This document shows, piece by piece, positions 17,901-43,300 of a DNA stretch of 64,000 nucleotides. The position numbers and the translations under genes were made by a program. How positions within the stretch are numbered: the stretch's first letter is position 1; every line of letters starts with the position of its first letter. Source of the DNA: Heterotrichella gracilis. Lineage: Eukaryota; Sar; Xanthophyceae; Tribonematales; Xanthonemataceae. Where the stretch lies: the NCBI GenBank assembly GCA_032358255.1, contig JAULBX010027163.1, forward strand, positions 124,001-188,000. Reading direction: 5' to 3'. A model generated the notes under the pieces. The model saw only the letters and a list, made by a program, of their open reading frames with translations, was not told the DNA's origin and did no database searches.

Positions 17901-20900
17901 ATGGAGGGACAGCCGCTGGAAAGTTTTTCGCCGAGGGATGTTGTTTGGGTAAACAACGGAGTCAGGGGAGAGGCTTTCTGGCCGGTAAGTTGGGTTTGAA
18001 CATTTTCACGTGACCCGATTGTGGCAACATCCACCTGTTCAAAGGTAGGCTTCTCCGTTGCAAACTGAGAGCTGCTGTGCTGCCTTTATCAGGCCGTCGT
18101 TATTGACCCTATTGCACAAGCTCCAGAGGACGTTCGTCGACAGAGGGAGGCAGGCAAGCACTGTGTCATGTTGTTTGGCCCGCCACTGAAGGTACGGGCC
18201 TTGCCAACTTGGCAAGGCGGTTGGGGGTGTTGTGGAGGGGCTTCTGTTTCTTGTATATGTCGTTGCGCCTTGCCTGGATGACTACTGCTGGTCCCTGGGT
18301 TGTGGGTTTGCAGCAAGCCATGTTCAGTGGGCGCTTATGCATCGATATGGCTGCAGGGGGGGTTTCGAGACTATGCATGGGCCCAAGACCTGCTCCCCTT
18401 CCACGAGCACTTGGACCATGTGCAGGTATGTTATATGGCAGAATGCGACTTAAATTAACTCTGTGCCTGGGCATTTTCGCTTCCTGTGTGCTGCTGCCAG
18501 TTATCGGGGATGAGGTGTTCCAACCTGGTTACCACCATGCGATTGTGGCACCGCAAACCGCTGCCTCATTGCTGCCCACTTTACGTTTCTTAAAGGGGCA
18601 GTTCCAGCACGTGCTCCAGCCGTTGTTGCCGTTGCATTCTGCAAGTTGCATGTTGCAGTTTTGGGTGAGCGGAAACTCGAGTGTGATTTTTTCTATTGCA
18701 GACCAATGGATCCCGCAACAAGGCCTTCAAGACTGCGATTGAAGAGGTACACAACCCTTATACCCCTATTCCCCTCCTTTGTCTGACCATCCCCCCTGCT
18801 TACCGACACAATCTGGTTTTGCAACGGATGACCAACACGATGTGATCCCTCCTTTGGGCCCAATGCTGCTCGTAAGCCCCCAGCTCTGTATCCTGTGCCC
18901 CTTCTGCCAACTTGGGTACTGTTTTCTACATACCCAGTGTTCAGCAGTGTCCCCCCCTGTACGTGTTGCACATTGTGTTGCATTGGTTTGCAAGGGCAAT
19001 GAGCCTATTTTTCCCGCTCTCTATCTCTACCTCCGACACCCGGGTTTGCTGTTCGGGGTCCGGGGAAGTTCCAAACCTTGCACCTCGTTTCCTTCTCTAG
19101 AATCAACCTCAAAGGGCAGTCGCCGTTTGCCCCTGTCGGTTCACCTGTACGACGGGCTAGGTGCAATCTGACCCTCGAGCCACCCTGCAGGTCTTCTCGT
19201 ACACCAACGGCACCATGGACCCTTTCAGCCACCTCGACGTCTTCCAGGTTCGTTGCGGTGCCCTTCCCTTGTACCATGCTCCTTCTCTGCCTTGCCCTTG
19301 TTGCTGCGCCCTGTGCTTGTCAAAACAGGCAGGCACCCTCCCTGGCCACTGGCCTGTCACTGGTGGGTTGGTTGACCACTACTTTGTGGCTCTAATGGCG
19401 CAGGCTCAAGCCGCCAACGGCCACCACTGCAGCAGCTGCAACGTGACCCTGGACGACGTTGAACTGGAGAGGTACCAGGACTTCCAGGGCCGCTGCACCA
19501 CCTGCCAAAAGCGCTACCTGGAGGGCAGCTATTGCCCCGTGTGCAGCAAGGTGGGCCAAGGTTCCAGTGGTGTGGCCTCGTGCCTGGGAACGGAAAGCTG
19601 GGTCTTTTTGTAACCCCAGAACCCGCCCTCTTGTTTCATTTCCGTTTACGCTTGGCTTGGTTGGTGTTGCCATGTTGACAGTGCAGTTGCACCTCCAGCC
19701 CAGTTCCTCCACCACCCCCACCTTGCCCAGCACCCTTACTCCCCTTGCCCCAGGTGTGGTGGGGCTCTGAGAAGGACATGGTGGGCTGCGACGGCTGCGA
19801 CCTGTGGGTGCACGCCGGCTGCGACCCACACGCCCGGCAGGCGCTGCAGGACATGCAGGCCAACGCCGAGGCGCCTTTCTACTGCACCAAGTGCCGCCAG
19901 CACCACACAGGGCGAGCGCACCTCGGCCACGCCACGCTGACGCCGCATGGCCGGCCCCGCTCGCAGCCCACAGGGGCCAGCGGCGGCGCCGGCAAGCTGG
20001 ACCGGCTGCGGCAGCTGGAGGCGCAGGTTGAGAAGCAGAAGCCCAAGCGCGCACGCAGCGGGTACAACATATTCGCCTCCGAGATCCACAGGTGCGCAGT
20101 GGGGACCCCTGCTGGCAATTGGCATTGGGTCACGTCAGCAGCGGAGCACCATCTCCATGCCATGCACCCCGCCATGCATAGAGGCTTCATGGAGCTGGCA
20201 CTAGGCAGCGGCTTATGAGCGCCCGGAGTGCATGGCATGTGGCCAATTTGGGTGGATGCATGGATGGATGCACGCGTCTTGGATATTCAAGTCACACAAT
20301 TCCATGTACCTGCTGTCCCCACCCCCCTCCTCTTCTTCCCCCTGCAGGAAGTACTCTGTGCATGACGAGAAGGTTCAGTTCAGGGATATCGCCAAGGTGG
20401 TGGGTGAGGCGTGGAAGCGGCTGACGCAGGAGGAGAAGATGCCCTACGAGGAGCAGGCGCAGGGCGAGGCGGCGCGGTACAGCGAGAAGCGGCAGGTGTA
20501 CAGCGACCTGGTGGCGCAGGCGGGGCAAATGCGGGCGGAGTGTGAGCGGGAAGGTGCGCTGGCATATAGGGTTTAGGGTTGAATCCAGGCCTTTGACTAC
20601 AGCTGAATTGTTGATACTTATTTTTTTCCTTGTAGTTTTATGTCAGTGGGAAGGTGCGCTGGTATTTAGGCATTGAATCCAGGCATTTAATTGCAACTGA
20701 ATTGTTGACATCCAGAGAGTTTAGTTAAAACTGCACTTTTCAGTTGTAGTTACATGTGAGTCCCAGGTTGGATGCATACACTAAGTTTAATAACATGCCG
20801 GGAACCCTGGTTTTAACAAGCCATTGCTCTGTGTCAGCTTCATTGTGTGCAAGTGATCCCTTTAGCCCATGTCCACTGTGGCTCGCGAGCTGGGCAGAGG

Positions 20901-23900
20901 CTTTCCCTTGTTTTGCCAGGTTTCAATGGGCTTTGTGCTGTTCCGTGAATTTTGCTATTGCTATTGCATGACGCTTGCGTGATGCGCCTGCAACCTGCAG
21001 GTCTGCTTGCATCCCGCCACGATGGCAAGGGCGAGTCGCCGCCTGATCTCCCACCCCCTGCGCGCGCCTCCACCGGCTCCAAGCGGCCCCTTGAGATCAA
21101 GGCTGAGCCCAGTCCCGATGAGGATGAGCCTCCCAAGAAATCCAGGCTGCGCTACACAGACGTGCCTGGCCTGCCTACAGAGGTGAGTGGAGTCGACAAG
21201 GGCAGTTGAGATGCATGGAATTGACCAGCTGCAGAAGTGTGTTCTTTCATGTGCAAGAGAAATGATTTGGAGGTGTATAGCTTGACATATGCACCACCCC
21301 GTGATGTACAACCCTGGACCAGGATGACCCATTGATCGGCGCACACACACACCGCTATTGGTCTTGAAAAAAGACACTTGCAGCTTGCACCGCCTTCCGC
21401 TGCTCCCTGCTCATGTCCGCCCCCCTTCCCCCCCTTGCAGATGCGCGTCATGTGCAACGGCATGCCCGGCGTGCTCAACCTGTTGGCGCAGCGGGTGGTG
21501 TGCTCGTGCAGTGACTGCAAGAAGCAGCCGCAGGAGGCACACGAGTTCACCCCCACGCAGTGGGAGCAGCACTCGGGGGCGGGGGCTGCCAAGAAGTGGA
21601 AGGCCTCCATCAGGATCGAGCCTGGCGAGGTGGATGAGATCCCCATAGGTGGGTGTGGTAAGCCATTCTATGCGTGTTCAATGAAAACTACGTTTAGAGG
21701 TTCAATCTACAGCCATCTGTAGTCTGGGGATGCTGTTGTCAACCAGAGAATTTTAATAGCATTTTAAAAGTTTTGCCTTAATTTCTTATAAAAATTAGAA
21801 GTGCATTGCACGCTCTGCATGTTGACATACTTTCCCTCCTGCAGGTTCGCAGTCCATGATGATCGGCAAGTGGCTGGAGATGAAGGGCATCGATGTGCGC
21901 CCATCCGCGCGTGCAACCCCCGTCTCCCGGGTCCCAAGGGAGCCCAAGGAAGCCAAGGAGCCAAAGGAAATAGCGGTCAAGGTGGAGAAGCCGCCCAAAC
22001 CTGAGAAGGCTATTGTGCAGGCGTGGCAGCCCTGGCTGGATGTGCTGAACCCCACCAAGTACAGGCCTGTCAAGGTGAGCAGTGGGAGGTGGTTCCTCAT
22101 GGATGGGTTTGGTCATGGGCAGTGCAGGGGGCGTGTGGTATGCAAAGGCCGCACCACATTTCATTCCCTCACACAAATGAGTATGTTTATACGTTCTTTT
22201 GAATTATTGCGTGCTCCTGGGCGCAGGTGAAATTTGCGGGCGACCGCTGCTGTGTGTGCGACAGCGACGTTGACTACGACTTTGACCAGCTGGTGTCGTG
22301 CGACTCCTGTGGGATCACGGTGCACCAGTCCTGCTACGGCGTGCCAGAGCTGCCAGGTGCGTGAAAATATGGCAGCCATGGTCATGACTGATTGGGGCAG
22401 TTGTTAATTTCTTGCGTCTACAACAGGTGGCATCGATGTCATTGACCGATGTTTTCAGGTTGGAGGTCTTTCTTGAGGATAGGAGATGTACGCGTGCATC
22501 GATAGGTGGTACAAAAACAGCCAGGAAAGAGCTGCTTGACACCGCAAGACTGACTGCAAATCTGGCTGTATTGCTGGATTACTGATTAAATAACATGCAT
22601 CAGCCTCTGCCATGGAATTGTGACCCACAGTACCTGCTCTGGCAACAATCTCCTGACTTCCAATTCAGCAATCTCCAGCCGTCGGTCAGCAAGCACACCC
22701 CTTGGTTGCAGGTGTTGAGGACATGTGGCTGTGCCGCACCTGCGAGCTCAAGGACGAGGACGCAGCGCCCCCGCAATGCTGCCTGTGCCCCGTGGAGGGC
22801 GGCGCGCTCAAGCCAACCAACATGCCTGCGCTGTGGTGCCATGCGGCGTGCATGCAGTGGATCCCAGAGGTAAGCTTGGGGGTTCTGGCTGCGTGTGCAT
22901 CAAGCCTGCCATCTCTTGTCGTGTATGGGTGGGTGGGTGAGGAAGAGGCAACGTACAGCCATACGTTGCCTCTATGGCTACGTATTGCCATAGACGTATA
23001 ATAGAGAAGGCGCAGCAATCCGCTGCATCAGGCTGGTGGGGAAAGGGGTGGTCATGCCTGGAATGGTGCACCTTGGCAGCCCATGGAATAGTCCATGGGT
23101 GCTTTTCAGGATTTTGATGGTGTGATTGCACACCTTCTCATTGAGAGTAAGGACTGCCATTGAGAAGTAAAGCCACTCAACCAAAACATGTAGGGCAGTC
23201 GCACCCTAGGCGCATGACATACCCATCCCTCATTGCACAGGTGACGGTTGAGGATGTTGGGCGCATGGAGCCTGTGGAGGGTATCAAGAATATCCAGAAG
23301 GAGCGCTGGGAGCTGATGTGCTGTGTATGCCGGCAGCGCATGGGGGCCAAGATTCAATGCGCCACCTGCTGCACCTCCTACCACCCGCTGTGTGCGCGCC
23401 TGGCAGGGCTGCACATGGAGATGGCAGAGGTGGGAAGCCTTTGGCTTGGACATATTAAGTTCTGGTGGGAAGTGGTGCAGCTCTTGGAGAGGGCAGGCAT
23501 GCGTGCTGGAACCCTTGGGGTTAACTTGAGGATTTGGGTGGAAAAGGGGGCTGCGCAGCATGAGCACTTAGGATTTTATGGGAATATTCCAGGGTTTAAT
23601 GGAGAATTCAGTTGCATAAGCGGTGGTCCATGTTGGATCCTGGTATGCAATGTTTCCACCACGGTTCATATTGGATCCTAGTATGCAATGTTTCCACCAC
23701 GGTCCATGTTGGATCCTAGTATGCAATTTTTCACCAGGAAGTGATCCAGTGCCTTGTCCTTTAATCGCACACACCCATTCCTCTAACCTACGTCCCCTTT
23801 CTTGCCCCTCCTTGTAGGGCGACCAGGGCCCCGACGGGCCCCTGCGCCTCATCTCCTACTGCCCCAAGCACTGCACCCCCCAGCCGCAGCTGACAGGTGT

Positions 23901-26900
23901 CAACCTGGTGCGCGACGACCCAGGCAATGAGGAAGGGGGCGAGGAGGCGGAGGCCGAGCTGTGCAACGGACAGCCGTGGCCGCAGCCGCCGGCGGTGCCC
24001 ATCCCCGACTGCGCCGCAGGGTGTGCACGTGCGCAGGCGCCCACGGTGCGTGCCTGGGTTAGGGTTTAGGGTTGCAGGCGCCCACAGTGCAAGTCTGGCT
24101 TTGGGTTTAGGGCTTACATGTGCAGCCAGGGTAAGTCTTAATAATCAGAGCAGCTGCAATGTTTTACTTACATGTGTATCTACTCATTGCTCCAGGAGTG
24201 GCAGCGCGCCTCCCACGGCACCGGTGCGGGCTGCAGCAGCACTAAGGCCTTCTGGATACCCCTCAAGCCACCAGATGCTGAGATGATCTACCTGGCGCCA
24301 CCCATCGAGCCCGCGCCATTGGACTCTCTGCTCGCGGTGGTTGGGCCGACCATGCAGGCGCCCGGCGGCATGGGGTGGGGCGGCGGGCGGGGCGACTGGC
24401 GGGGCGGTGGCCGCGGCAGGGGAAGGGGAAGGGGCGGAGGAAGGGGGCGTGGTGGTGGGAGGGGGCGCGGTGGAGGGCGAGGCCGGGGGCGGGGACGGGG
24501 GCGGGGGCGGGGTGGGGGTGTGCCGCGGCCTGCAGTCAGCCAAGCTCCTGTGCCGACTGGTCCTCCTCCGCAGGTGAGTGGGCGGGGGTGGGTGGTGTGC
24601 AAGATGAGGGGCGCAAATTGCATGGTATTCACAGGTGTTAATTTTGTTGGGGCTCAGCAAACTGTATGGTTTATTGTCTGCATGATTGCATTAAAGGCTG
24701 TGGCAACAACTTCAGCTACTTGCTGGTTGTTTTTGCTGCCCTTTCTGGCTCGAGAATTTCATGGTACACCTGTGCGATGCTTTCACATGTGCAGGCATCA
24801 CCTCCCAGGGATGTAGTTGCAGAGGGTGTTGCCAGGGTGCCGTTGAGTGCAGTGTGCATCATCTGTAGAATCAAAAGCTGCGGTGTAGGGTTTAGGGGCA
24901 TTGATCACAGAAGCTGCACAAGCATCTCACAATGCCGCTGACAAACTGTCCTTGCTTTGTACCAGGTTGACCTGATCGAGCTGCCTGAAAACACCCCTGA
25001 GCACCTGAACGTGCTGTGCAACGGGCGCCGCGCGGTGCTGGTGCTGCGCACACAGCGCATCATCTACAACGGGGAGGAGATGCCGGCATCCAAGTTTGAG
25101 CAGGTGGGTCAAGGTGCTCCAAGGCTGCTATTTCTTTGTATGAGTGTGGTATTTTCTCCATAGCTATGCGAACTAGCAGGCACCTGCTTGACTTGTCAGC
25201 TATGCTGTGCTGATCATGTTTTCTTTTCCCCTTTTGTTTGAGTTTTTGTTTGAAATTTTTGTTTGAATTATTTTATAATCATTTGTTGTCCTGTAAAACT
25301 TGTATTTCTGTCTGAAAATATGAGAGCTGTGCTGAGTGTGCACCGCTGCTGTGTGTGTGAGCAGGTGTGCGGCAAGGCCGACGCGAAAAAGTGGAAAACC
25401 AGCGTGTGGCTTGAGGGCGAGCACGGTCAGCAGGACCGCATGATGCAGGACTGGCTGGCTGAGAGACGCATGGACCGCAAGGGCCTGGCTGCGCTCCAGA
25501 CCAATGCGCTGCAGCACCAGGCCTGGGTGGAGTACCAGGAGATGCTGGCCAATGGGGGTGGGGAGGCGGGTGGCGCAGGGGGGGGAGGGGAGGTGGAGGG
25601 AGGGGAGAAGGCGGAGGGAGAGGAGGGGGAGGACGGGGAGGAGCATGGTGCAGGGGAGGGAGAGGAGGAGGACGGGGAGGAGGAAGGGGGTGATGAGGAG
25701 GAGGGCGACGAGGATGGCAATGGCGATGGCGATGAGGAGGGTAAGCAGTAGGTGTAGCACGTGAAAGTTGGGTTATGTTGTTAAGGAAGGAAGGTGCGGG
25801 TGACAACTGATATGGTAAGCAAGACAAATCCAGTGCATGCTTAGGCCTTCATTCTTGGTTTGTGGGTTGTGGTGTCACCAATCGGTGATGCCACACTTGC
25901 AACGCATCAGTGGCTTTCTGGTGATTGGGGTTTCAGATTCTGCATGACACCCTCTGGTATAGGGCTTAGGGTTTGGGACAGTCCTGACATTGTGTGGTGT
26001 GGCTTCCCATGCAGACATGGATGTGGATGTGGACGGGATGGAAGACGGCGTCCAACCGCATCCATCCATCCAGCCAGCAGCTACCAGCAGCGCGCCAGGT
26101 GGCGCAGCAGCAGACGACACAGCATCCCACCCAGAAACCTCCACAGGCGCCGCACCCCTCCAGAACGGCACCACCCCCCACACCCCACCCAAGGGGATGG
26201 ATGACGTCATGGCTGATGCACCAGAGGCTCGACCGGACCCCACCAGTGGGGCACCAGGGCAAGTGGCCTCGAGTGGCCAAGGGGGCAGCGGCTCTCCGAG
26301 GGCTTCATCGGATGATGCCTTCGCCACGCCGCTGGAGACAAGTGAGGCTGCGCGGGAACACAGCGGCCAGGATGGGGGCTCCAATGTTGAGGTACAGACC
26401 CTAAACACCAAACATTACACCCTATATAAGTGAAAAAGCGTTCTAGGGCAGCGTTCGTATATTGCCATAGGACTGGTTGCTGAAACCAAAAGTTGGGTCT
26501 CCTGGATGTGCAGGACAGCCTACGAGACCCTAAACCCTCAACCTTCCACCCTTAGTGGTGTGCAAAACACCAAAATCAAAACCACAGCTGAGACATGAGA
26601 GTTAGTGTTCCTGGATGTGCAGGACAGCCTGCGCGACCCTCCTGCCACACAGCAGCCCCCCACCAGGTCCCGATTGGCAGTGAGCAGCAAGGCCACTGAC
26701 GGCGCTGGACCAATGGAGGTGGATGGGTCGGAGGGGGAAGCCAGGCCAAGCCACGGCCAAGCAGGCCACGATGCACTTGCCAATGGACAAGGTGGGTTAC
26801 CCTGCTAGGTTTTGCATCTCTTTGCCCTGCCACGCACTTGGGCTGAATGCATGACTGTGATTTCATAATTGCACTTTACCTACGCGAAGTGGGGCATGAC

Positions 26901-29900
26901 CATCAATATATTCAATTCTTTGCGCATCTGCTGTGCATGCGCTTGTGACACATGGAAGCCACCTACCTAATCGGCCTGCAGAACCCTAAACCCTAGCAAA
27001 TTCCGCTCCTTATCCCTAGCTTTGCCACCGCAGCCTCCCCACCCACCCACCTGCCGTCATCCGATGGCAAGGGCGCCCGCGGCACTGAGGTTGTGGGTTC
27101 CTTCCTGCGCGTGTACTGGAGTGGGGATGACGAGTGGTTTGAAGGGGAGGTCAGAAGCTATGACCCAGACAACAGGATGCACAAAGTGTGGTACTCCTAC
27201 GACCAGGAGGTGGGTGATACTCGATTCAAAGGGCTTCATCTTTCATCAAGATGCGTGCGCATGCTACAGGGCTGCAGAATAACCCTCGATTTTGCTTGTA
27301 TTCCACCAGCTTATCGAAACACCTAAATCTTATAATAGTTAGTTCATGTATTACGATGTGCCAATGATAGGATAACAATTGATTGGCAGTTTGTGCGTGG
27401 TGGGATGCTGTCACATCACAATCCTATTATATCCTTCATGTCATGCGCTCCGAACATCTAAATCCGCGTTATTTGGCTGTTGGCGCCATGCAGCAATGAG
27501 TGGCTGGCCAAGGCCTGACACAACCCCATAGCTCCCTTTATGATGTGGCTGTAAACCTTAAACCTGACTCACGAGCTTTCATGTCATTGCCTACAGGATG
27601 AGTGGCTTGACCTGAACAAGGAGGAGCACACAGGGCGCGTGCAGTGGCTACCAGGCCCTGACCCCACCACATGGCCGCCCCCGCCATGGCAGCCCAAGGC
27701 GCCTGCCGCAGGGGAGGCCAGGCACAGAGCAGTGGCCCAACCCGCTGCCGCTGACATTGCCGGGGAGGTTGGCGGTGCTGATGATGAGGTGAGGAAATGG
27801 ATGGGAGTGTGGGCTCGCTGTGGAGATCACTCTCCTGTGTGCTTTGTGTGCATGTGTGTGTGTGTGTGTTTAGTCCAGCATCATGCTACAATGAAATAAA
27901 TAATACCATGGTTTCAGAGTCTTCAAAGTTGAAGGCAACGAAAGTGTAGGTGCTGTATAACTTCCTTAGTTTAAGGAAAGGAGTATCTACTGGTACGAGG
28001 ACAGTACTTATTTTGTTATAAGCCACGCTAGTGAGCTTCTGTTAGTATAAACAGATGTCAGTTGGGCAAAATACACTGACTGCCTATCCTGCCCTCCCCC
28101 TTGCAGGACCCCAGTCAGCCCCAGGTAGGGTGGCTGGTGGGCGTGTGGTGGAAGGACGACGCCTGCTACTACTTTGGGCACATAGCCACCTACTCGCGAT
28201 CCACCCACAAGCACCACGTGCTGTATGAGGATGGCCACCAGGAGTGGCTGGAGATGGCCAGGGAGCACGTGGCGTGGATCGCGGGGCCAGGGGAGTATGA
28301 GTGGCCGGACGATGCGCGTGTGCCCAGAGGTGGGTGCTTGGGAGGGGTGGGGTGGGGTGGGGCGGGGGTGCGGTGGGAGAAGGGGAAAGATGGGGGACAG
28401 TAAGCGGCTGTACTTGGCTTGGAAGCACATGTGTGGGTGCGTGTGTGTCCAGAAGTGGGTGTTTGGTGGGGTGGCGGTGGTGAGGCTGAGAGTGGTCTGG
28501 ATGTGGTGGCTCTCCAACCCTTGCACTGGCAGGGCAGTTTGGAAACTTGGTCAGAGCATGGGAGCTGCAGGTGGTTCTCCAATGATTTTCTGATGCTGAA
28601 CAAGCTGACATTAACTGACATTGGGGAGTTATCAGTGGGTGGACAACACTGTCCCCTCGGCGTTTTAACTGACATCCACTCTCCCCTTGCAGACCTGGCA
28701 CCCCCCACAGCTGCTGAGCTGGCAGCCCTGGCCCCCGACCCCATCCAGGATGCAGAGGCCCCCGCTGGACCCTCCGCGGCCCCTGGGGATGCGTTCGCGG
28801 CTCCCGGGGATGCATCTGGGGATGCCGAGCCCGTCCCCGGCCCCAAATCCGTCCCCGTGGACGTCCCCGAGGACCTTGCCATTGTGTGCAACGGGGCCAC
28901 GGGTGTGTTCAATTTGAAGACCCTGATCATCGACATGTCCAACGGGCGCCAGGTGTCGCCCACAGAATTTGAGCGCCTAGCCGGCAAGGGCTCCTCCAAG
29001 AAGTGGAAGGTGAGATAATGTAGAGTCATCAGCGGGTACTTCACATTTTGTTCATGTAGCTAGTACCGGCTAGTGAAGCTAGTATTTGGTACTTCTCCTA
29101 TTAGTAGCTTGTACTGGCTAGTAAATCTAGTAATCAGTACTATTCAGTAAGCGGCTACTAGGTGGAAGTTCTCAGCTACCGGTTGTAATTCTAAGCCTGA
29201 TAATAGTGATGATATTAATGTATGCATTCCAGCCACACAGTCATGCCCTGAATAAACCCTCAACCCTTGTGGTGTGCAGGCCAGCTTGCGGGTGGACAAG
29301 GGCGGCGGCAAGCCCGGGATGACCATCGGGGACTGGCTGGTGTCTGTGGGGTTGGAGCAGCCGCGGTCCGCCCCCCGCGCCGCCCGCCCCGCTCCCTCCC
29401 TCAACGCTGTCAGGCGGCGGCATGCGGCAGCCCAATACGCTGCTCCGCAACCAGGGGGGCGTGTGCAAACAAAGGTGTGGGGGATCTCGGGGTGATCAGG
29501 CTAGCTTCCAAACGGATGATATGCGCATATTTAGTAACATGCGCATCACAATGTGTGCTCAGTAGCACCATGCCCAGATCGCAGCGCTGCACCGGCCATG
29601 GCAGCCAACCCACTAAGACGCCATCATGGCATCATTACTTCGCGTCATACCCTGCTCCCCTTGACCCCGCAGATGCACCGCGAGGGCTGCATGTGCGTCA
29701 TCTGCAAGCAGGCGCGCAACAAGGGCCTGGCGTCGCCCCTGGGACCCCATGCAGCGGCCAAGTTCATGCAGCCCGCAGCCATGGCCAGGGCGCCTGAGCA
29801 GCAGCCACGGGCGCTGGGCTCGCGGCTGCGCTTTGGCAAGCGCGCCTATGTGCACATCCTACCGCACACGCGCAGCGCGCTCAGCTCTGTCATGGTAAGT

Positions 29901-31702
29901 AGTAACTTGGGATGGTTGCAAGAAAACTGCTTTTAACTTGCAACTGGTTTTGTGCTTTAAATTGGCTTCGAAGTGCCTTTGTGCTTTTATATGGGGTCAA
30001 AAATATTGTGATTTGCAGAACAGAAGAGAATAAATAATGGGATCCGCCGCAGCAATTGGTTTATTAAACAGCCAGTTCAGGGTTTCACCCGCGAGTAATG
30101 CCCCTCTCCAATAATATCCCACTCTCCCCCGCTCACCGCCACGCCCCTTGCCCGCAGTACCGCCCGCCCACAACGCGCATGTGGCTGCCCTCCGCCTGGG
30201 AGGCGCACCAGCTCACGCAGCAGCAGCAGCGGCTGCTCATCCAGGCAGCAAACGCAGGCGACTCACAATCCCACCCGCCCCTCCCGGGGACCAGCGAGCT
30301 CCCCAAGCCATCCCTGCGCCAGGCTGGTGTGCCTGGGTCTGAGCTGGTGTACGTGGGCAACCCGCTGCGCAAGGCCATGACTGTGAAGGACAAGCTGCTG
30401 CAGTCGTTGGCCTACGAGCGCACGCGGCTCACCTTTGGGAAGGTGCGGATTAATGCTTGTGGTACCCTGCAAGGGTTTGATGCATCCAAGCTGTGCGACG
30501 GCAGGGTGGACACGAGGGTGGAGGGTGTATGCTGCAGGGGTGTGTGGTGGCAAGTATCGGCACCCTGCAGCCAAATTAAAACCCTATTACTTGGAAGATG
30601 AAACCCTTAACCCTACAACAATAATACCATAAACACTACATCCCCATGGCGCAGTCTGGGATCCACGGCTGGGGCTTCTTTGCGCGCACCAACATCCCGC
30701 ACGACACCATGGTCATAGAGTACCGCGGCGACGTGGTGCGGCGCACAGTGGCCGACATCCGCGAGCGCCGCTACAAGCGCGAGGGCAAGGACTGCTACCT
30801 GTTCAACGTCAACGATGACATGGTCATGGACGCAACCATGTGCGGGGCGATCGGGCGCTTCACGGTGAGTGGGACGTAGGGCTTTTAGGTTTAGGGTTTG
30901 TGGCTACGGCTGAGGACAATGCATTTGTGGATAAAATCGTGTGTGGGGCGATTGGGCGCTTCGGTCTGGTAGGGTGTGAAGTTTACAGGTGCACCTGGGG
31001 GGGGACAAGGGGGATGTAAATGCACACACAGTGGGCCACAAGGGGGCATCATGTGCAATCAATGGGTATGGTATGTCATGGTCAGTGCACATCCATCTTG
31101 TCATTGGCAAGCACTTTTGGTTTTATGAACCCACCCACGTTTGTTTTTTACGTCATGCGCAACCACTGCCTGTTTGCGTGTCCTGCATGAGCCGGTGTGC
31201 ATCTCATGCGTGCGTCGTCTCGTGGTTGACGCCCCTCGTCTGCTTGCGCAGAACCACTGCTGCTCCCCCTGTATGTACACCAAGGTGGTGGAGTGCGACG
31301 GCGAGCACCGGCTCATGTTCTTCACAAAATACGACATACGTGCGGGGCAGGAGCTGACGTACAACTACAGGTGGGGCGTGCACATACTTCAATCTGCAGG
31401 GGTACCCATTGCCCATTGCCCAACTGACATGTCCAAGAACAGGCTGCATCTTTGATTTCTTTACCTTTATCTTGCAACTACAGATGGGACCAGATCGCTT
31501 GCCGCGCACATGTTCAACAAAACGCTGCATCAATTGATTGTTGTTCATGTTCCTTTGACAATGCACATTGGGACAGGCTTTGGGATTTATGGGATTTCAA
31601 TGTGAGTGTGTTGTTTTCTTGTACAGGTTCAAGGAGGAGGAGGGCCCAAACAAGCTGCTGTGCCAGTGCGGGGCACCAACGTGCAGAGGTTACATGAACT
31701 GA
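17901..31702 (+). CDS. Trithorax/ATX-type histone H3K4 methyltransferase-like protein (PWWP-PHD-HMG-SAND-like-ePHD-Tudor-SET)
   Basis: A 30-exon model closes in frame at 1953 aa, ending with exons 30655-30864, 31252-31370 and 31627-31702. Order: PWWP-like (1-112); PHD (about 132-215); HMG box (about 280-350); SAND/TDBD-like segment 1 with KKWKASI (423-491) and IGKWLEMKG; PHD (569-620) and extended PHD (to about 760); RG/RGG tract (exon 24196-24573); SAND-like 2 (24966-25420) with an acidic tail; two Tudor-like folds (27090-27660 and 28115-28290); SAND-like 3 (28870-29350) with IGDWL; a CMCVIC segment; LTFGKSGIHGWGFFA leading into SET (1819-1928) with EYRGDVV, NHCC and ELTYNY; post-SET CQCGAPTC. 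SET and ePHD identify the ATX/trithorax class, which methylates H3 lysine 4. The HMG box and three SAND-like copies are unusual for that class. One weak spot: exon 3 is in frame only with an acceptor at 18317/18318, 10 bp upstream of the site homologous to copy 1. Confidence 0.87.
20541..20710 (+). repeat. Exon-end duplication inside intron, copy pair with telomere-like motif
   Basis: The end of the HMG-box exon and its donor (20541-20617, tgtgagcgggaaggtgcgct...) are repeated imperfectly at 20641-20710 (tgtcagtgggaaggtgcgct...). The similarity continues through gaatccaggc and ctgaattgttga. The first copy contains gggtttaggg just after the donor. Confidence 0.85.
22944..22973. repeat. Perfect inverted repeat in intron (12-bp stem, 6-nt loop)
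   Basis: agaggcaacgta at 22944-22955 is exactly complementary to tacgttgcctct at 22962-22973. A second weaker inverted repeat follows directly (ctatggc/gccatag). The matching intron of copy 1 lacks the structure, so it arose or was kept only here. It may be a small mobile-element remnant or a structured intron element. Confidence 0.75.
23625..23735. repeat. Tandem repeat, 38-bp unit x 3, intronic
   Basis: Three consecutive units begin ggtccatgttggatcc, ggttcatattggatcc and ggtccatgttggatcc, each continuing to atgcaat and a run ending near ccac. They lie in the intron before the exon at 23818 of trithorax-like copy 2, close to its acceptor. The corresponding intron of copy 1 does not show them. 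Confidence 0.9.
24031..24112 (+). repeat. 41-bp tandem duplication spanning an exon end, donor and telomere-like motif
   Basis: Unit 1 (24031-24071) contains the last coding bases gcgcccacg, the donor gtgcgt and gggtttaggg. Unit 2 (24072-24112) repeats this as gcgcccacagtgcaag with gggtttaggg, so the second donor is degraded. Only unit 1 is needed for the reading frame. Confidence 0.9.
26491..26640 (+). repeat. Acceptor/exon-start duplication flanked by telomere-like motif
   Basis: The block 26600-26640 (acceptor plus the first codons of the exon at 26623) is repeated upstream at 26491-26531 with few differences: cctggatgtgcaggacagcct occurs in both. The upstream copy breaks off directly into accctaaaccct. 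Both copies keep an AG acceptor; the downstream one is used because it continues in frame. Confidence 0.88.
30939..30970 (+). repeat. Degenerate copy of the SET exon end in its downstream intron
   Basis: tgtgtggggcgattgggcgcttcgg mirrors the true exon end at 30839-30866 (tgtgcggggcgatcgggcgcttcacgg). The donor is lost in the copy. Between the two lies aggtttagggttt. The copy has no role in the protein model. Confidence 0.85.
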
Positions 31703-32412: not shown

Positions 32413-35400
32413 TTATATGTCCTGAAAATATCCATTATGGCGTTTGTTTGCATTCAGGAATGGCTCGTCGTCGCGTCCTGCGTCGTCCTCCACCTCCCAC
32501 TGGTGCTGGTGCAGCTGGCTGCCAGTGGTACTGTTGGCAGACACGCAAAACGCGGTGCCTGCCCGCTGACCAGCCTTGGGTGTCGCCCCATTGGATGTCG
32601 AACTCCCCTCGCCCACATCCCGATTTGTTGCGCTTTCATTTGTGAAAATGTCACCAGATTCCTGGTGCACAATGCCTGGCTGCTGGCTCTGGTTGTGGCA
32701 GCCCCGCTTGGCCATCATGGGGTTTGCCACACCTCCCCCTGCTGGTCCACCAACCCCTGGGGCGCTGATGGGACCTTGGAAGCACGAGTCCAGAATGGTG
32801 GCGCCCAAATCCACTGTGGATGCGGGCCGGTCTTGCAGCACCGCCTTGGTGGCGTGCAGCAGCCGCTCGTTGAAATCGTGCTGCAGCATCACAGGCCATT
32901 CAATGAAGTTCAAATCAACTCAGGGAAAAATCATTCTAACTCAAGGCAAAAAGAACCAAAAAATGCAGGGATTACCATACCTACCTTGCCCAGCCTCAAC
33001 AGGGCTCAGCCTGTGCATAAGACACAGTCTTGCCACTGCCAGAGCCAGCAAGCATCGCTCTCATACCTACCTGTCACATCCGATAGCAATGTCTCTACCC
33101 AATCACCCTATTAGGTGGCTAGTAGCTCCATCCTCTGACAGAGTCGTCTGCTACAGTGTATACCAGGACAGTACATCTGCAGGCCCTAGCGCACGTGCTC
33201 ACCTGCATCCTAGCCAGTGGCAGCTCATTGGGCTCGCACACAAAGGGGTCCTCCAGGTCACGCGCCACCTCCTCCACACTCCAGTAGGCCAGCACTGCCA
33301 GGAAACTGGACAGCAGCTCCAGTGCCAGGTGCTCGTGGCTGGCAACCACCAGTAGCGGGAAGGTTATGGTGAAGAGGATGAGGATGAAATTCACCGCTTG
33401 CGCCCACGGGAAGGGGAACTGGAAATGCGCCAGGGACCTGCAGAGCGCAAACAAGTACTTGAGCAGCATGCCACCTGTCTTTATCCTAAGGCGTGCTGGT
33501 GGAAGAGAGGATATAGCAAGTGGAAGGTGGCAAAGTTGAGGGCAGACCCTGTCAGGAAGCCTCAATCCCAACAGGAAGCCTCAATCCCAACAGGAAGTCT
33601 CAATCCCAACAGGAAAGACTGTAGAGTATTACATTTCTACTTATAGGGTTTAGGTTTAAACCCTAAGGCCAGAGACTAACCCTCCTGTCTACCCTCTTGT
33701 CACATGTTTGTCGCCTACCTGCAGAGCTCGAATGAGCCCATCCCACTGACGATCCAGTTGTATATCTGCCCCCGCAGGGGCCCCTCAACATTTGCCAGCC
33801 CACCTGCTCGATGCCTGCGCTCCACCTCGTGGTAGACCCAGCTGACGCACATGGACACCCGCTGGTTGGCATTGGGCACGTAAATACCTGTGATGTAAAT
33901 GGCCTTGGTCGCCAACAATGCAATGCACTATTTGCGTTGGAGATTCATGGAGAAATGTACTCATGTTGCAAATTGACATGCAGTCTATAACATGACTGCA
34001 TGTCGTAGACTTGAAAATGCATGATTCATTGCAAGCAAACTCATGATGGCAATAATATTGTCACACCGTTGATGCAAATCATCACATGGCCAGATATCGG
34101 GAGCATGTACCTGTTTTGAACCACGACTGGCGGCCCTTGGGGGTGTTGTCTGTGAGGATGTCACACCCCGTCAGCATGCTGCAGGTTTTGGGTCGTGCTT
34201 TATCCAAGTCCCCACTCAATATGGCTTGCTCCTCTTCACTGATATCGCCCAGGACTGGAATGCTCATTTTCCTACACTCAACAAGGCACCCACTTCAATT
34301 TTATTCCTGGAATATTGTGGTTTAGGTGTACACCACATGTACACGAACAGTTGCAAAAGTTTGTTGATTGTGCTCAATGTGGTCTCACCTGTAATACTCA
34401 CGCAAGCCACCCAAGTCTGAGCCCAGGACAAAATACTTGTGCAGATTTTTCAATCTATCCCAGCCCCGCATGAAGGCAATCGAATCCTACAGCAACACAC
34501 AAAAAGGAGACAATTCCATATTTTATATGAGGAAATACAAAATTTGAAAAGAAAGGAATGATTTAAATAATGATTTAAATCATAATTAAAGAGTCTTATA
34601 TGAACTATGGAGCAGCACGCAGTCTGTTTTCCTGTGTTCTTTCAAGTAGAAGTATACCATTTATTGCCATAAGTACGGTCCATGTATCCATCGCGGCCCC
34701 AAACGGATGTGCATAAAGTGCACAAAAACATGGCTGGACCACCTACCATGGGTGGTGGCAAATCATCCTCCCTGTGAGCCTTGAGATGCGAGAGCTCCCA
34801 ATCGCTGCGCAGGTGCAGGAGGGACAGGCCATGCAACAGGCTGAAAAGGTGAATGATGTCTTCTGCAAACTTCCTGGAGCTCTGAATGGCCTCTGGATTG
34901 GAATAGTCTTCCATAGGCAGGTTCCAGAACTCGTAGCTCACTAGGGAGACAGCAGCATTTGCCCAGAAGTTGCTCATGTACCTGCAGTAGGGTTTGCGAG
35001 TTAAGGGTTTTGGGGTTTCAAGAAGTCCATTGTGTACATTCAGCTGGTGGCAGGAGTACCACCTTGTCCCTCCTGAAATAAACCTACTGTCATAGGAGAC
35101 CTGAACAGGTGTTGCACATACAGCATTGCTGCAGCATTTGACGCACAATTGAGCGACATCCACAGCGACATCCAAGGCGACATCCACGAGCGACATCCAC
35201 AAGGCAGCATTACAAGTGAATCAAAGCGGCCAACCGTACGTGATCTGTGTGCGCCCCTCCCAGAAGCGTGAATACCCAATCTGCGTCCTGCAGAACGCAC
35301 ATTGGACACATTTAATCCCCTGTTGTGGGTTGCTCATGGATCATGAGGCATGAATTTACCAACATTCAATTGATTAATTCTGGAGAAGGTTGAGGAGCCA

Positions 35401-37385: not shown

Positions 37386-40300
37386 ATGCCCTCACGGCGC
37401 AAACGCCAGGCGCGGGGCAACTACGACGCTCAGTATGATTACGACGATGCCTACTCCCAAGAGCGGTTCGAGCAGTACCAGGAGCGTTTCGAGCGGTTCC
37501 ATGACTACATGACCGCTAACGGTGGCGGGCCGCGCAGGAAGGACCGCCGCAGCTGCTACTGCATCACCGCCACCATGCTGCTGCTGCTGTTCTGCGTCTA
37601 CATCGTGGCCTACCACGGTTCCTCCTCGCCGAAGGACAAAACCCTCCAGGAGCCTGACGTGGGCAGCGAGCACGAGACGGTGGGCCAGGGCGCAAAGCCC
37701 AGGAAGGGCAAACCCAGCGCTGGTTCGCCCAAGCACGGCAAGGGTCACGACAGCTTTGAAGCCCAGCCCAGCAAACCCGCCACCACCACCCCCAGCTGCA
37801 GCAGGAGGAGAAAACCCTCCTGCCCCGTGCGGGTGGCAGATTACTGGGGCCTGCCACCCAACCAGTGCAAGGCGGATACCACCTCGCCCTGCACCGAGGC
37901 GGCCTTCCCCACCCTGTACCTCCCCAACGACCACCTGCCGCCAGATTGGACCTGCGACGAGCTGGATGACAACAGCATAGGTGCCGAGGAGGCAGTGGAC
38001 CTGTATTCCACGGTGCTGCTGCAGTTTGCTGTGGAGGTGCTGACGGAGCTGTCGGGGCTGCTGGAGGACCCTGTGCATGGCAGGGCTGAGGTGGTGAAGC
38101 GGTGGACGGTGATGACCCCAGAGGGGGTGGGGGCCGACCCCTACGACCCACAGGTAGGGGAACGGTGGAAACCCTAAATTCTAAACCCTAAACCCTAAAT
38201 CAGAGTGATGACCCCAGAGGGGTTGGGCGCACTGGACCCTAAACCCTAAACCCTAAAGTGCAGGCAGGCGAAACAGTATATGTGACGGCCACGCCTTCAT
38301 TTCTTCCTCAACCAAACCCACCTGTTCACATTCAGGCTGCGCATTTAGAAATTAATGTATCTATTTCTATCAACCTCAGGTGGTGCGCAATCTGCGCTGG
38401 CTGGCGTGCGTGCCCAAGGAGGAGGTGGACAGGATTATTGAGATGAAGCGGAGCGCAATGGCCAAGATAGACTTTGGCCGCTTTTTCTACTTCCCACCAA
38501 ACACAAAGTCTGCGGTTGGCTTCACACTACTCAGTAAGTTTAGGGTTTAGGTGTTGGGCTGCTGCAAGTTTAGGGTTTGGATTTAGGGTTTGGGCTTCAG
38601 GTGTAGGGTTTGGGGCTTCACGCTGCAAAGTGAGTTCCTTTTCCTGCCCCTGCCGCAATTTTAGGGTTTGGGTTTAGGGTGTTGGGGTGGTCGAGTCGCA
38701 GCTTTAGGGTTTAGGTGTAGGTCGAGGGTCCCGCAGTGCGCCTTGCCAAGAGTGCACTTGCACGCCAAGGCTGACTCGTGCACCCTGTCTGGGACCCGGC
38801 CCCACTGCAGTGCACTGTGGATGCATCCTGGAGCATGGGCATATAGGGATGTTGAGCATTTGGGAGCACGGCCATACATGCGCCTGGGAACAAGGATCAT
38901 GAACCACAGGCTCGCAGGTGACGATGGTGGTGCACGCGCAGGTTTGGCGGAGGTGGCGACTGTTGCGCACTTTGCCTACACCATGGCGGCGGAGATCGCG
39001 TGGGTGGTGTATGGGAGCTCGCTGCCAAGCTGGTGGGTGGTGGCTGGGGGTCCTGTCCAGGGGTGTGTCTGGCCAGTTGAGCGACTGCCTCTCTAGGGTT
39101 TAGGGTTTAGGGTTTAGGGTTTAAAGGCAATTTAATGAACGGGAGCGCGCTGCCCAGCTGGTGGGTGATGGCTGTATACGTTCTTTGAGTGAAAATGCAG
39201 GAGTAATCCTGGCTCGTTGCCTGACCCGCGCCCTGCCTCACAAGTTGCCAGTTACTGGTTGCGTGGCCGGCTGTTTAGGGTTCAAGGTGTAGGGCTTCCT
39301 ACGGAGCGCGTCACCGAGATGCTCCACTCCACTCACTACCTCGCAGGTTCAGCGACGCGCCCGCGGACGACGGCCGGCCCGCCTTTTTTGTAGCGGTGGC
39401 CGCCCGCCTGCAGTCCCTGCTGCCCATGATCAACACCCTGGCGGTGCGCAACCTCATCCTGATAGTAGCCACCGCGCGCCTGACCCTGGCCAGCCCCTGG
39501 ATGCCCTGGGCGCTGGTGCTGATGGATAGCTATGAGCGCACCTACGTCAAGCCCACGGTGGCCAACATGCGCAACCGGCCCGGGGACATGTTCCCGCAGT
39601 TTGTGGGTACGTCCAGGGTTTAGGATGTAGGGTGTATTCCCAAACCCAAGGGATTCATCGATTGCGGTCGATACATGGTGGCAGCAGCAGGTTGACCAAG
39701 CCAAACTCAGCCAATTGACTCCTTGCATTCTTGATATAACATCAAATCAACTTCCTCAGGAGGCTCCTGTCTCTTCAGTGCGATGACAGGAAACCGACTT
39801 TGAACTTACCCTCCCGTCCCTCCCGCAGGCCTGTTTGCCTCCATGCGCCTGCTGTACATCCCCCTGGGGATATCCATCTGGGTGCCATTCGCCCTGGTGG
39901 CATTCAAGTGGCTGCACTTCTTAAAAAAAAAAATTAGGAGGAAATCCTCTTGTTTTGATCACTTTCACTTCATACCGTGATGACATGAAATTGAACTTGA
40001 CTATTAACTTCCTGGCCCCCCTGCAGGCCTGTTTGCCTCCATGCGCCTATTGTACGTGCCCCTGGGGATCTCCATATGGGTGCCCTTTGCCCTGGTGGCA
40101 TTCAACTGGCTGCACCGCATGGTGCGGGTGGATATGGTGCCCGTGGCGGTGCTGCTGGCGCAGATGGGGTACTGGGTGGGGGCGCTATTCTATGCGCTGC
40201 ACGCCGCACATGAGCTAATGGGCGTGGCCCAGGTGGCGGGAGGTAGGGCAGGGCTTTTGTAGGGTTTTGAAGGGTGGAGGTAGGGTTTTCGAAGGGTTTT

Positions 40301-43300
40301 TGAAGGGTGCATTTGCATGGGCGGGATGCTATGGCATGGGCGCGGGGATCAGGTTTTGCTGATGGGGTTTTGGGTGGGGGTGCTGTTCTACCTTGATCTG
40401 TAGGGTTTGGAGGGTGGAGATAGGGTCTTCGCAGGGTGCATGCGCATGGTTTTGCAAGGGTATTGCAAAGCTCTGTTGAGGGCAGGAAGGGGGTCTAGAG
40501 GGATGCATGCGCATGCCTTGACTGGGGCTGCTCAGGTAGGGCGATGGCGCAGCATGCTGATTTTCCAGATGATTCACTGGGTGGTTATGCGCTGCATGCG
40601 CAGAAAGAGATGCTCAGCATGACCTAGGTGGTGGGAGGTAGGGTTTCATCTAAGGTTGCTGAAGGGCAGCAATGTGGCATGGGGTGGATGCGCTGCTCAG
40701 CGCAGTGAAGGGGCATGTGGCAGGGAGTAGATATGCCTGCCCTGGTTTCAGCTTGGCTGCTTGGCTGAGGCGGTGTTATATACACGGCAGGCAGGTTGTC
40801 AACCTCATGCCAGGTGTTAAATTTTTCATGATGTAAAGGATCCCCGTTGCAAGCGGGTGTTGCTCCCCTTCATCCCCCCCTCTCACCCCTCACCCCCCTT
40901 CCACCCCCCACTCCCGCAGCCGCCTGTGCGATGACGCAGGAGGGGGAGGGGAGGGGGCTGGTGTCCCGGTGGTGGTGCGAGTCCAGCCATGCCAGCCTGG
41001 AGCTGGCGCAGGCTGTGTTCAACCCCTGGGGCTACCCCGGGCTGCTGTCGGTGCTGGTGGTGGCGCATGCATATGACCAGCTGCTCCAGGTGAGGGGGAA
41101 AGTAGTAGTTAAATGGGAATCAATAGGAAGTAAATTGTGAATCAGCTCAATTTATACAGTTTAAGAATTGAACCAACTCAATTTACCATCGGATGTGTTG
41201 CAGGATTGGATTGCTGAGGAGACGCGCGACCACTCCGCCCTGGAGATGCCTATGCTTCTATAAACTGTGGCAAGGTTTTCCAACAGCATTCCGTTCTGTT
41301 TGCAGGATTGGATTGCGGAGGAGACGCGCGACAGCTCTGCCCGCTTTGTGCGCCTGGCCCGCCTTGCGCAGCACCCTCACAAGACCATGTGGGTGCTCAA
41401 CCTGACGGAGGACGCGGTGGAGGTGCTGCTGAACGTGGCGCAGGATGTGCAGGAGCAGGAGGCCGACAGGGACGAGGTGCGGCCCCGTAATGGCTGTTAT
41501 GTTTGAACTAGGTGATGAAGTTGGGGGAAATTGTATTTTTTTGTGGCTAAGCAAGTATGTGCAGGAGCAGGAGGCGGGCAGGGATGAGCTGCGGCCACTT
41601 TTACGGTTTTTTGTTCATCTACAGTGCAAGAAAAAAGACAGCTCACAATATCCGTAAGAAACATTGGAATGTACAGTAATAAAAAATCATGTTCAAATGT
41701 TTGATAGGTATCTCACACACATAAACATACATCAACATGTCAGTTAGATTGATGTTTAATTGTATGCAGTCTCACAATTCAGCCCCATTTAGCAGCCAGC
41801 ATGGGGTTAAATGGGGCAGCGCAGGTCATGCATGCCACCCATTGCAAGTCCCTACTTCCTAAACCCTACCCGTGTGCAGGACGAGGGCGTGGCCCCTGGG
41901 CGCTACCCCACTGGGCGAGTGCTCAGCGCCTGCGCCATCAAGCTGCTTGACCTGGCGGTGTTCCACCTGGCGGCGTTTGGCCTGCGCCTGGTCATGTTCG
42001 CAGGTGCGGCCTGTCACCCTTGCTAGGGTTTTGCTGGGGTTGTGTGAAAGTAGCCCGTTCAGGTTTTAAGGGTAGTCTCCGTTCTTTGTCTGCGCTTTGC
42101 TCCAGGGTGGGTAGTGTGGTAGGGATTGCACAGGTGGCGTGGGGATGGGGTTGAGTTTCAGAACAGGAGGGGATGCGCCCCACATGTGCAGTTCCAGCAC
42201 AACATTTGGTGCCGTAAACATGGAAAAAAGCTGTTCCTGCGCCTGGTCACCTGAGCTGCTAATTTCTGTGATTACTTGCTTGTGGTCATTTTGACAGGAT
42301 GCTTGTAAAACCATTTGTATAATCCCTTCCATCCCCGCAGGCGAGTTCTTCCTCCTCACCTTCTCGGAGTTCCTGTGCCCCATCGCCCGGGGGGTGGCCC
42401 TGGTCTTCTTCCTCCTCTATCTCCTAGTCACCCGGGGCTGCTATTTCCTCCTGGACTGCATCGAGGACCCCGACTACGCAGCAGACACCATCGGCAAAGG
42501 CTTCTCCCGGGGATTGGGCTTTTTCGGGAAGTGGACGGGGGCCACCTATGCTTTGGCGGTGCTGGTGACCCTGGTGACCCGGGTGGTGGTGGCGGGGCAG
42601 CCGTGGGTGGCGGCGGCTGCTGCGCCGGTGGGGGCTGGGGTGGCGGCGGTGGGGCGCGGGGTGGGCGGCGTGGCGGTGGCGGTGGCGCAGGGGGTGGCGG
42701 CGTCTTGCAGAGGTGTGGCGGGGGTTAATTGGGGATGTGGGGGGGTGCATTGCAATGTGTGCCGGGGTGGGGGGGTACTCTGGGTCATAGTGTGGGGTTC
42801 CCGTGTGATGCATGCATGTGGTTGGGAGCCAGTGAACTGATACGCAAGCGAGGTGTGCACTTGTTTGTCTGGGGATTGCTTGGAAGGCACGTGTGTGTGA
42901 TGGGGAGCCCAGTAGGGCACGCCCGAATCCGTGTATGCAAACCAAATTATCATGTTGTGTCAAAAACCCTAATCAAGGGTGCAAGCAAACCCTAACCAGG
43001 GTATCTGTGGCATCTGCAGGAGCTGGCTCCCGCATGCAGCGGGTCGTGGACCTGGTGGTCGAAAAGCTGGAGGGAGACGGGGATGACAGGCAATCCCCAA
43101 CCGAATCCAGCACCGCCCAGGGCCCGGCGCGCAAGGGGGGCAAGCCAGCCACCGCCGCCAAGGGGAAGTCGCAGCATGCCAAGGGGGCGCACGCCCCCCC
43201 TCAGCAAGGGAAGAAGGGCAAGAAAGGCAAGGGGGGAGGCTACGGCGGGGGTTCGCGGGCCAGCAGCGACATGGGCCAGGCGGAACAGCGCGCTTCCTCG

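Follow-up and report, generated by a model that had tools for sequence, protein, structure and literature searches.

Of three proteins encoded in the window, i.e. the whole 64-kb stretch of Heterotrichella gracilis DNA analysed here, parts were searched against Pfam: the first matched SET, PTM/DIR17 Tudor and, just below the cut-off, SAND, the second matched bestrophin, and the third gave no match. The exon at 23811-24010 showed no blastn match to a phage collection. Several introns of the window contain an imperfect copy of a neighbouring exon border, and the initial annotation had listed ten such copies. Compared with 300 dinucleotide-shuffled versions of their own intron, nine of the ten were better than every shuffle. 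The exception is the copy claimed at about 38605-38637 (18/23 identical positions), which 38 of the 300 shuffles equalled or exceeded and which is unsupported alone, though its 96-bp offset fits the others.

All window features described here lie on the forward strand. An exon end with its donor (edge 20553) and the intron start, located at 20541-20580 and running into a telomere tract read by eye at about 20567-20580, is copied for 20541-20570 at 20641-20670 (26/30, offset 100); similarity is weaker further on, a BLAST self-comparison aligning 74 positions of this pair at 77%. At 24033-24071 an exon end with its donor (edge 24045) and a telomere tract form a 41-bp tandem pair with the copy at 24074-24112 (33/39), which includes a telomere tract of its own. 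The copy at 26500-26531, abutting a telomere tract at 26527-26537, reproduces the acceptor and exon start at 26609-26640 (edge 26623; 30/32, offset 109). In the SET gene the exon end 30839-30861 (donor edge 30864) recurs at 30940-30962 (21/23, offset 101), with a telomere tract at 30890-30898 in between. Within 38170-38257, two CCCTAAA tracts (38170-38199 and 38236-38257) enclose the copy 38205-38230 of an exon segment at 38109-38134 (edge 38153; 24/26, offset 96), and the copy that lies within chance alone is found at 38614-38636, its presumed source being the exon end 38518-38540. Exon end and donor at 39013-39046 (edge 39032) are separated by a perfect TTTAGGG array (39094-39123) from their copy at 39141-39174 (31/34, offset 128). 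A long alignment concerns the acceptor and exon start at 40016-40115 (edge 40027), copied at 39818-39917 (89/100, offset 198). Acceptor and exon start 41300-41342 (edge 41306) are copied at 41198-41240 (39/43, offset 102), and exon end and donor 41442-41484 (edge 41476) at 41554-41596 (38/43, offset 112). Telomere units had been described beside many copies; an exact heptamer does lie between the two members, or within 30 nt of the pair, in seven of ten cases, but none was present at 39828, 41197 and 41559.

A uniform scan of exon edges with a narrower query found ten edges with a copy in the window, comprising seven of the claimed copies and three new ones, while the claimed copies at 20641, 24072 and 38605 were not recovered. 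The new copies are 14938-14964 (from the exon end 14849-14875, edge 14872, offset 89), 28438-28460 (from 28313-28335, edge 28329, offset 125) and 40586-40643 (from 40191-40248, edge 40242, offset 395).

Copying of exon edges into introns is real and reaches beyond the window. The tests of copies against edges covered 264 kb, made up of the window and 200 kb of contig C2, to which small loci were added; genome-wide, donor sites adjoining telomere arrays were counted. In the 264 kb, 90 of 714 exon edges had a copy in the adjacent intron (49 donor and 41 acceptor edges), compared to none with shuffled introns and three with the reverse complement. These copies lie in 81 of 357 introns, 71 of 260 in C2 and 10 of 97 in the window. 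The expected excess at exon edges over exon interiors was confirmed: copies were found for 74/635 exon-only segments at 0-60 nt from the edge, for 11/490 at 60-126 nt and for 0/285 at 120-186 nt, the last control being too distant to be fair alone, for which reason the nearer one was added. Duplicate pairs joining a junction to an intron numbered 72 (25.8 expected, rotated annotation as baseline), and intergenic pairs 8 (43.7 expected). The BLAST self-comparison gave 80 edge rows versus 96 by local alignment and failed to recover at least one strong pair (C2:359422); its role was limited to the association test and the spacer tables.

The offsets between original and copy cluster at 75-129 and 165-219 bp. 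We considered whether the peak at about 195 bp represents two units of about 95 bp without the middle copy, and rejected this, as any similarity in the middle was found in only 8 of 30 cases and may partly reflect overlap with the main copy. Tandem arrays occur at C2:290280-290900, 321100-321450, 264500-264900 and 288040-288760, and at a further locus (L001) a repeat unit of about 53 bp, read by eye, spans a donor.

TTTAGGG is the telomere repeat of this species itself: contigs C70, C140, C526, C609, C717, C770 and C824 each have an array in their first 10 bases. Counting overlapping and terminal ones, the whole genome has 834 matches to (TTTAGGG)3. The motif is densest in introns, near splice sites, and about 6 times denser in introns than between genes, and 53% of the telomere tracts lie within 40 nt of an edge (27% expected). 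The proposed link between copies and telomere motifs held in the 264 kb (OR 5.15, p 6.6e-8; control motif OR 1.25); at intron level in the window alone the values were OR 4.2 and p 0.057. A donor consensus just upstream of (TTTAGGG)2 was counted 106 times genome-wide versus 7 times with the donor read backwards; the acceptor counts of 353 and 185 have no proper baseline and were given no weight. A constant involvement of telomere DNA is not supported. At offsets of 70-135 a telomere-like word was contained in the span of 20 of 29 copies and missing in 9, and no spacer at all separated original and copy in 5 of 29 pairs. At offsets of 165-240, 10 of 29 copies lacked such a word across the whole span.

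Direct repeats with a score of at least 30 flank 55 of 176 intronic telomere tracts, compared to 53 of 880 random intron places and 61 of 880 distance-matched ones; 121 tracts have no flanking direct repeat of this score, and no inverted flanking repeats were found at score 30 (0/176). The direct repeats have a median length of 38 nt (10-90% range 23-67 nt), those below about 15 nt being undetectable. In the cleanest case, L058, a duplication matching at 66 of 69 bp encloses (CCCTAAA)5, five perfect repeats, with no telomere motif visible immediately outside either copy; here the end of the duplication overlaps the tract by 4 nt, resembling microhomology, the one such case seen. A duplication of 44/50 bp encloses three repeats at L003 (C2:314675-314695, within the C2 sample). 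The structure of such loci suggests that the tract was inserted. Among 14 distinct perfect arrays taken as internal, 9 had no flanking repeat of score at least 30. This test let masked letters match each other, which affected L030 (6 masked letters), while the printed alignments of L058, L002 and L003 were unaffected.

In our view these data are best explained, with somewhat better than even confidence, by repeated repair of staggered double-strand breaks straddling exon-intron borders. Two offset nicks would leave overhangs of roughly 25-70 nt, and filling in of both before joining would duplicate a stretch P, consisting of exon edge, splice site and a bit of intron. In many events telomerase would extend the free 3' end first, resulting in P, telomere repeats and P again. 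The outer copy, continuous with the exon, would stay functional in splicing, whereas the inner copy, together with the telomere scrap, would turn into intron and decay. Recurrence at one border could yield the tandem arrays with units of about 60-130 bp and lengthen the intron stepwise. We infer the breaks, the 3' overhangs, the action of telomerase and the order of events from the edge copies, the junction excess, the flanked tracts including L058 and L003, the tandem arrays and a TERT-family match (PF12009 at contig C626, best E 4.8e-13). The telomere filler was probably made by telomerase. The proposed repair fits reports of telomere insertion at breaks (PMC2246262, PMC7215372) and of fill-in by CST-Pol alpha (PMC8355091). 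The interpretation in the initial annotation is supported in part; its templated local duplication with addition of telomere-type DNA agrees with the flanking duplications. The copies without a telomere word and the arrays and tracts without a flanking repeat (9/14 and 121/176) count against break repair. Orientation was tried as a sign of telomerase polarity and failed: at donors it is mixed (11 G, 12 C), so that no strand polarity directly supports telomerase, and the C bias at acceptors (13 C, 2 G) could be explained by avoidance of AG upstream of the acceptor.

Alternatively, ordinary local tandem duplication might occur everywhere and be filtered by selection, copies within exons being purged, those in introns or spanning a junction persisting, and junction copies remaining recognisable for longer, so that the edge pattern would be mostly ascertainment. 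Junction pairs would indeed diverge more slowly owing to exon conservation, and of uniformly distributed events with repeats of 30, 45, 60 and 75 nt, 10, 18, 26 and 33% would cross an edge, a share that would rise with doubled detection to about 36%, a round figure of ours. Yet 26 of the 36 recent telomere-flanking repeats (identity at least 0.88) straddle an edge (p 8.8e-9 versus 0.26 and 1.1e-5 versus 0.36, values that are too small, since several tracts possibly stem from one array). Moreover the tracts, which exons do not conserve, crowd the edges too, and intergenic pairs are scarce although intergenic DNA should be most tolerant of duplication. We regard such a filter as rather improbable. 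Similarly unlikely appears a minisatellite-like expansion, in which telomere-like tracts beside splice sites undergo slippage or recombination and so spread their flanks in tandem, with no telomerase involved. Multi-unit arrays with a tract in each unit and the degeneracy of many tracts would suit it; the single tract of L058 between two copies, with none outside, the identity of the motif with the species' telomere and the excess of tracts in introns relative to intergenic DNA would not.

Tracts flanked by direct repeats and a preference for genes are also what a mobile intron-type element (introner-like, or a telomere-attaching retroelement) might produce if it inserted close to splice sites and made long target duplications, and introners are known to prefer linker DNA (PMC9860276). 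We found no shared element, however: 398 of 440 inter-intron similarity hits contain the telomere motif, and among the other 42 is a small dispersed family that, in what was seen of it, showed no tie to the copies. As no inverted ends were found and the duplications far exceed the 3-9 bp known from introners, such an element is very improbable. Hardly more credible is copying from RNA, whereby telomerase would extend a nick, switch to nascent pre-mRNA and copy the exon border into DNA. The concentration of duplications in gene bodies and their unspliced form across the junction would agree with it, and fragments of telomerase RNA have been copied into some vertebrate sites (PMC8537989), but donor and acceptor edges are hit alike and DNA fill-in yields the same products in fewer steps.

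Fill-in alone predicts neither the preference for exon edges nor the scarcity between genes. Tentatively, the repair of staggered breaks might be part of a border-directed process of gene bodies, in which two-sided fill-in and telomerase-made filler would add about 95 or 195 bp per step at the ends of introns and which would have left its mark on about one in five of the introns sampled, with the breaks perhaps falling in linker DNA beside the exon nucleosome.

Interstitial telomeric sequences of mammals are put in at double-strand breaks, with target duplications at some sites, and telomerase has been proposed as their source (PMC2246262; human and horse, PMC7215372). Simple target duplications are a minority there (6 of 130 loci in rodents, 4 of 25 in primates and 3 of 66 in horse, where a few complex ones add to the number), and the intron share in human is consistent with random insertion (PMC2246262, PMC7215372). 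H. gracilis likewise carries its own telomere repeats at internal sites with the target modified at some, but 55/176 intronic tracts are flanked (about 6% expected), and the tracts are intron-rich and prefer edges. Small tandem duplications arise when CST-Pol alpha fills in 3' overhangs at staggered breaks, with overhangs down to 43 bp, patch-mediated and paired-nick repair being cited as related routes (PMC8355091). Like these, ours are direct duplications tens of bp long whose copies adjoin or enclose a short filler; they differ in that telomere filler often lies between the copies and in their recurrence at exon borders. Where a new intron arises by tandem genomic duplication, its length and the offset are the same. 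Offset and intron length agreed in 0 of 90 copies here (nearest 77 versus 74), unlike intron gain by this route, in which exon sequence and splice sites are duplicated (PMC4974935). Introners add intron sequence genome-wide, in algae too (PMC9860276). In this they are similar, but here there is neither an element family nor inverted ends, and the introns that hold most copies exceed the duplicated unit in length, which looks like an enlargement of introns already present. No comparable remark was found in the searched parts of the Coccomyxa genome paper.

Intron length is usually ascribed to transposons or to diffuse insertions and deletions. This genome would add recurrent growth from the borders, with preferred step sizes and a tie to telomere repeats. 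If confirmed, it would connect the maintenance of telomeres with break repair and gene architecture, and offer a natural system for asking what breaks DNA at exon borders. Duplication-driven intron growth, as had been suggested, receives indirect support only: the median length is 367 nt for copy-bearing introns versus 274 nt for those without, and longer introns also give more space for a copy. The earlier view of the copies as broken for splicing does not hold in general. Where the site could be aligned in the 264 kb, 28 of 33 donor copies retained GT and 29 of 33 acceptor copies retained AG. The offsets gave no sign of frame retention at these spare sites (13/57 multiples of 3). An intact splice dinucleotide in most copies may be a source of alternative splicing.

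Copies of exon edges, i.e. of an exon end with its donor or of an acceptor with the start of its exon, were found in the adjacent intron for 49 donor and 41 acceptor edges (357 introns of at least 60 nt, score at least 30). The same scan gave 0 and 0 in shuffled introns and 1 and 2 in the reverse complement (donor and acceptor, respectively). The copies lie in 81 introns and in 26 of the 41 multi-exon genes, with rates differing by region (10 of 97 window introns versus 71 of 260 introns of contig C2). Nine of the ten window copies listed in the initial annotation, each tested against chance, proved to be beyond it and one did not. The assembly comprises 68.5 Mb in 903 contigs, the window being C465:124001-188000, and the sample was enlarged by 200 kb (C2:240001-440000; C2 coordinates are contig positions). 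Gene models were taken from a purpose-written gene finder, and the introns are thus predictions from sequence. At convergence it yielded 41 genes and 371 introns in this sample, with a sharp predicted splice consensus (donor CAG|GTGAG, acceptor TGCAG|G) and one internal stop in total across the 41 predicted proteins. Pfam searches with parts of three window proteins detected SET and bestrophin domains in two; the part of the third gave no match.

Enrichment at exon edges was borne out. Copies were found for 74 of 635 exon-only segments 0-60 nt from the edge, for 11 of 490 at 60-126 nt and for none of 285 at 120-186 nt; the position copied most often is about 20-40 nt from the edge. The copy offsets are two-peaked, with 45 of 97 at 75-129, 7 at 130-164 and 29 at 165-219. 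Median intron length is 367 nt with a copy versus 274 nt without, a difference of about one unit, and long introns also offer more room for a copy. The copies had been described as broken for splicing, which is mostly wrong: GT is intact in 28 of 33 donor copies and AG in 29 of 33 acceptor copies. This retention appears to be about the level expected from 10% neutral divergence.

Perfect TTTAGGG arrays stand at the very start of contigs C70, C140, C526, C609, C717, C770 and C824, and TTTAGGG is therefore the telomere repeat of the species, as is reported for Chlorella and Coccomyxa (PMC12636532, available text). Gene content, intron-rich genes, GC content and this repeat make the genome look like that of a green alga. 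Heptamer density is 1.62 per kb for introns, 0.10 for exons and 0.275 for intergenic DNA; for the reversed control motif it is 0.20, 0.18 and 0.11, respectively. Intronic heptamers are crowded within about 50 nt of the intron ends, and of the longer intronic tracts (n=60) 53% are at most 40 nt away from an exon versus 27% expected. Genome-wide, (TTTAGGG)2 follows the donor consensus within 30 nt 106 times and the reversed donor 7 times; telomere sequence precedes the donor in 29 matches, found with a slightly altered consensus and with overlapping hits in an array counted one by one. The proposed association with the copies was upheld at the level of edges (introns below 120 nt excluded), as 25 of 66 copied edges had a heptamer no more than 90 nt away versus 65 of 614 (OR 5.15, p 6.6e-8; OR 1.25 for the control motif and 3.4 for intron middles). 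At intron level the odds ratio was 3.9 (p 5.6e-7), similar across three length classes, and 4.2 (p 0.057) in the window only. At offset 70-135, 20 of 29 copies had a telomere-like word in their span, as did 19 of 29 at 165-240 (raw counts, uncorrected for chance). Telomere DNA accompanies many copies, as the initial annotation had it, and is lacking from the span of 9 of the 29 at offset 70-135; three of the ten window cases have no exact heptamer.

We also aligned the left and right flanks of 176 intronic tracts of at least 9 bp with telomere words masked. Direct repeats (score at least 30) flanked 55 of the 176 tracts, those within one array not being independent. Of 880 intron places chosen at random 53 had such repeats, and of 880 matched for distance 61; inverted repeats flanked 0 of 176 tracts versus 8 of 880 control places. 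Among intergenic tracts 2 of 12 had a flanking direct repeat versus 1 of 60, and among exonic tracts 0 of 8. The repeats straddled an exon edge in 40 of 55 cases (26 of 36 at identity of at least 0.88), where uniform events would give a share of 0.10-0.33 for repeats of 30-75 nt. Their median length is 38 nt (10-90%: 23-67 nt), with both copies within 12 bp of the tract in 22 of 55. Loci with perfect telomere arrays made up 17 entries, 14 distinct ones and one C173 array entered three times; the latter lies near a contig end and no flanking repeat was found there. Five of the 14 reached a score of at least 30 (L001, L002, L003, L030, L058). L002, L003 and L004 are within the C2 sample, outside of which 3 of 11 have a flanking repeat; L029 probably lies near the end of a contig. 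The cleanest case is L058, where a duplication matching at 66 of 69 bases encloses (CCCTAAA)5 midway along a predicted intron; the sequence immediately beyond the two copies shows no telomere motif.

In an unbiased scan for direct local duplications (offset 20-1000, low complexity masked, coding repeat array at window 9900-11050 excluded), expected numbers came from rotating the annotation under the detected pairs. There were 72 junction-intron pairs versus 25.8 expected, junction-junction 18 versus 8.1, intron-intron 56 versus 49.0, exon-intron 21 versus 27.3 and exon-exon 11 versus 16.7. Exon-intergenic pairs numbered 8 versus 4.0 and intergenic-intergenic 8 versus 43.7, "intergenic" being the remainder after the gene finder, part of which may be untranslated sequence or missed genes. 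Local duplications are concentrated in genes, and a genome-wide tendency visible only where tolerated looks unlikely on these counts. The excluded array contains a coding tandem repeat of about 66/132 bp within a predicted exon (window 9955-10953).

Some borders carry a series of consecutive units, and each unit combines an exon edge, a splice site and telomere-like DNA. The donor at C2:290804 has copies at 97, 187, 276 and 364 bp (identity 0.92, 0.94, 0.85 and 0.86), the acceptor at C2:264543 five at 64-315 bp (1.0 beside the exon, 0.86 farthest) and the donor at C2:338797 two (0.96 and 0.93); the arrays at C2:288696 and C2:246550 lack a clear gradient. Identity therefore falls clearly with distance in two of the five arrays examined. 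The gene finder made a duplicated exon end at C2:314704-314733 (L016, L003) into a 30-nt in-frame exon of its own, with a telomere-bearing intron on either side; this may be a copy that turned coding, or a mistake of the gene finder.

Direct duplications would result if staggered breaks had their two overhangs filled in. With telomere-repeat insertion, fill-in of a stretch P (exon edge, splice site and a little intron) would leave P - telomere - P, and without telomerase action plain P - P. According to the available text of PMC8355091, complementary 3' overhangs give rise to direct duplications through CST-guided Pol alpha-primase and subsequent end-joining; in mammals, telomere repeats are inserted at breaks, sometimes with target duplication (PMC2246262, PMC7215372, available text). 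The genome has a TERT-family match, PF12009 (telomerase RNA-binding domain), in two pieces at C626:23723-24513. The exon-edge preference may, at a guess, have to do with nucleosome linkers, as the spacing of about 195 bp and introner studies (PMC9860276, available text) suggest. Among the papers listed in literature searches, with most subscription journals outside their coverage, no description of exon-edge duplications with telomere filler in introns was found.

Other repeats occur at and within introns, too. In L001 (about 1675-1840, shown minus strand) three copies of a roughly 53-bp unit are seen by eye across a donor without telomere filler, a pure tandem duplication. The intronic stretches at window 23625-23736 (38 bp, three times) and 33553-33615 (19 bp, three times) are tandem repeats whose consensus units lack the telomere heptamer. 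Several introns of the window and C2, e.g. window intron 22357-22711, share a dispersed non-telomeric segment of about 50-100 bp in both orientations, with words like CAGCCAGATTAGCAG; it was also seen by eye in L001 and may be a short mobile element.
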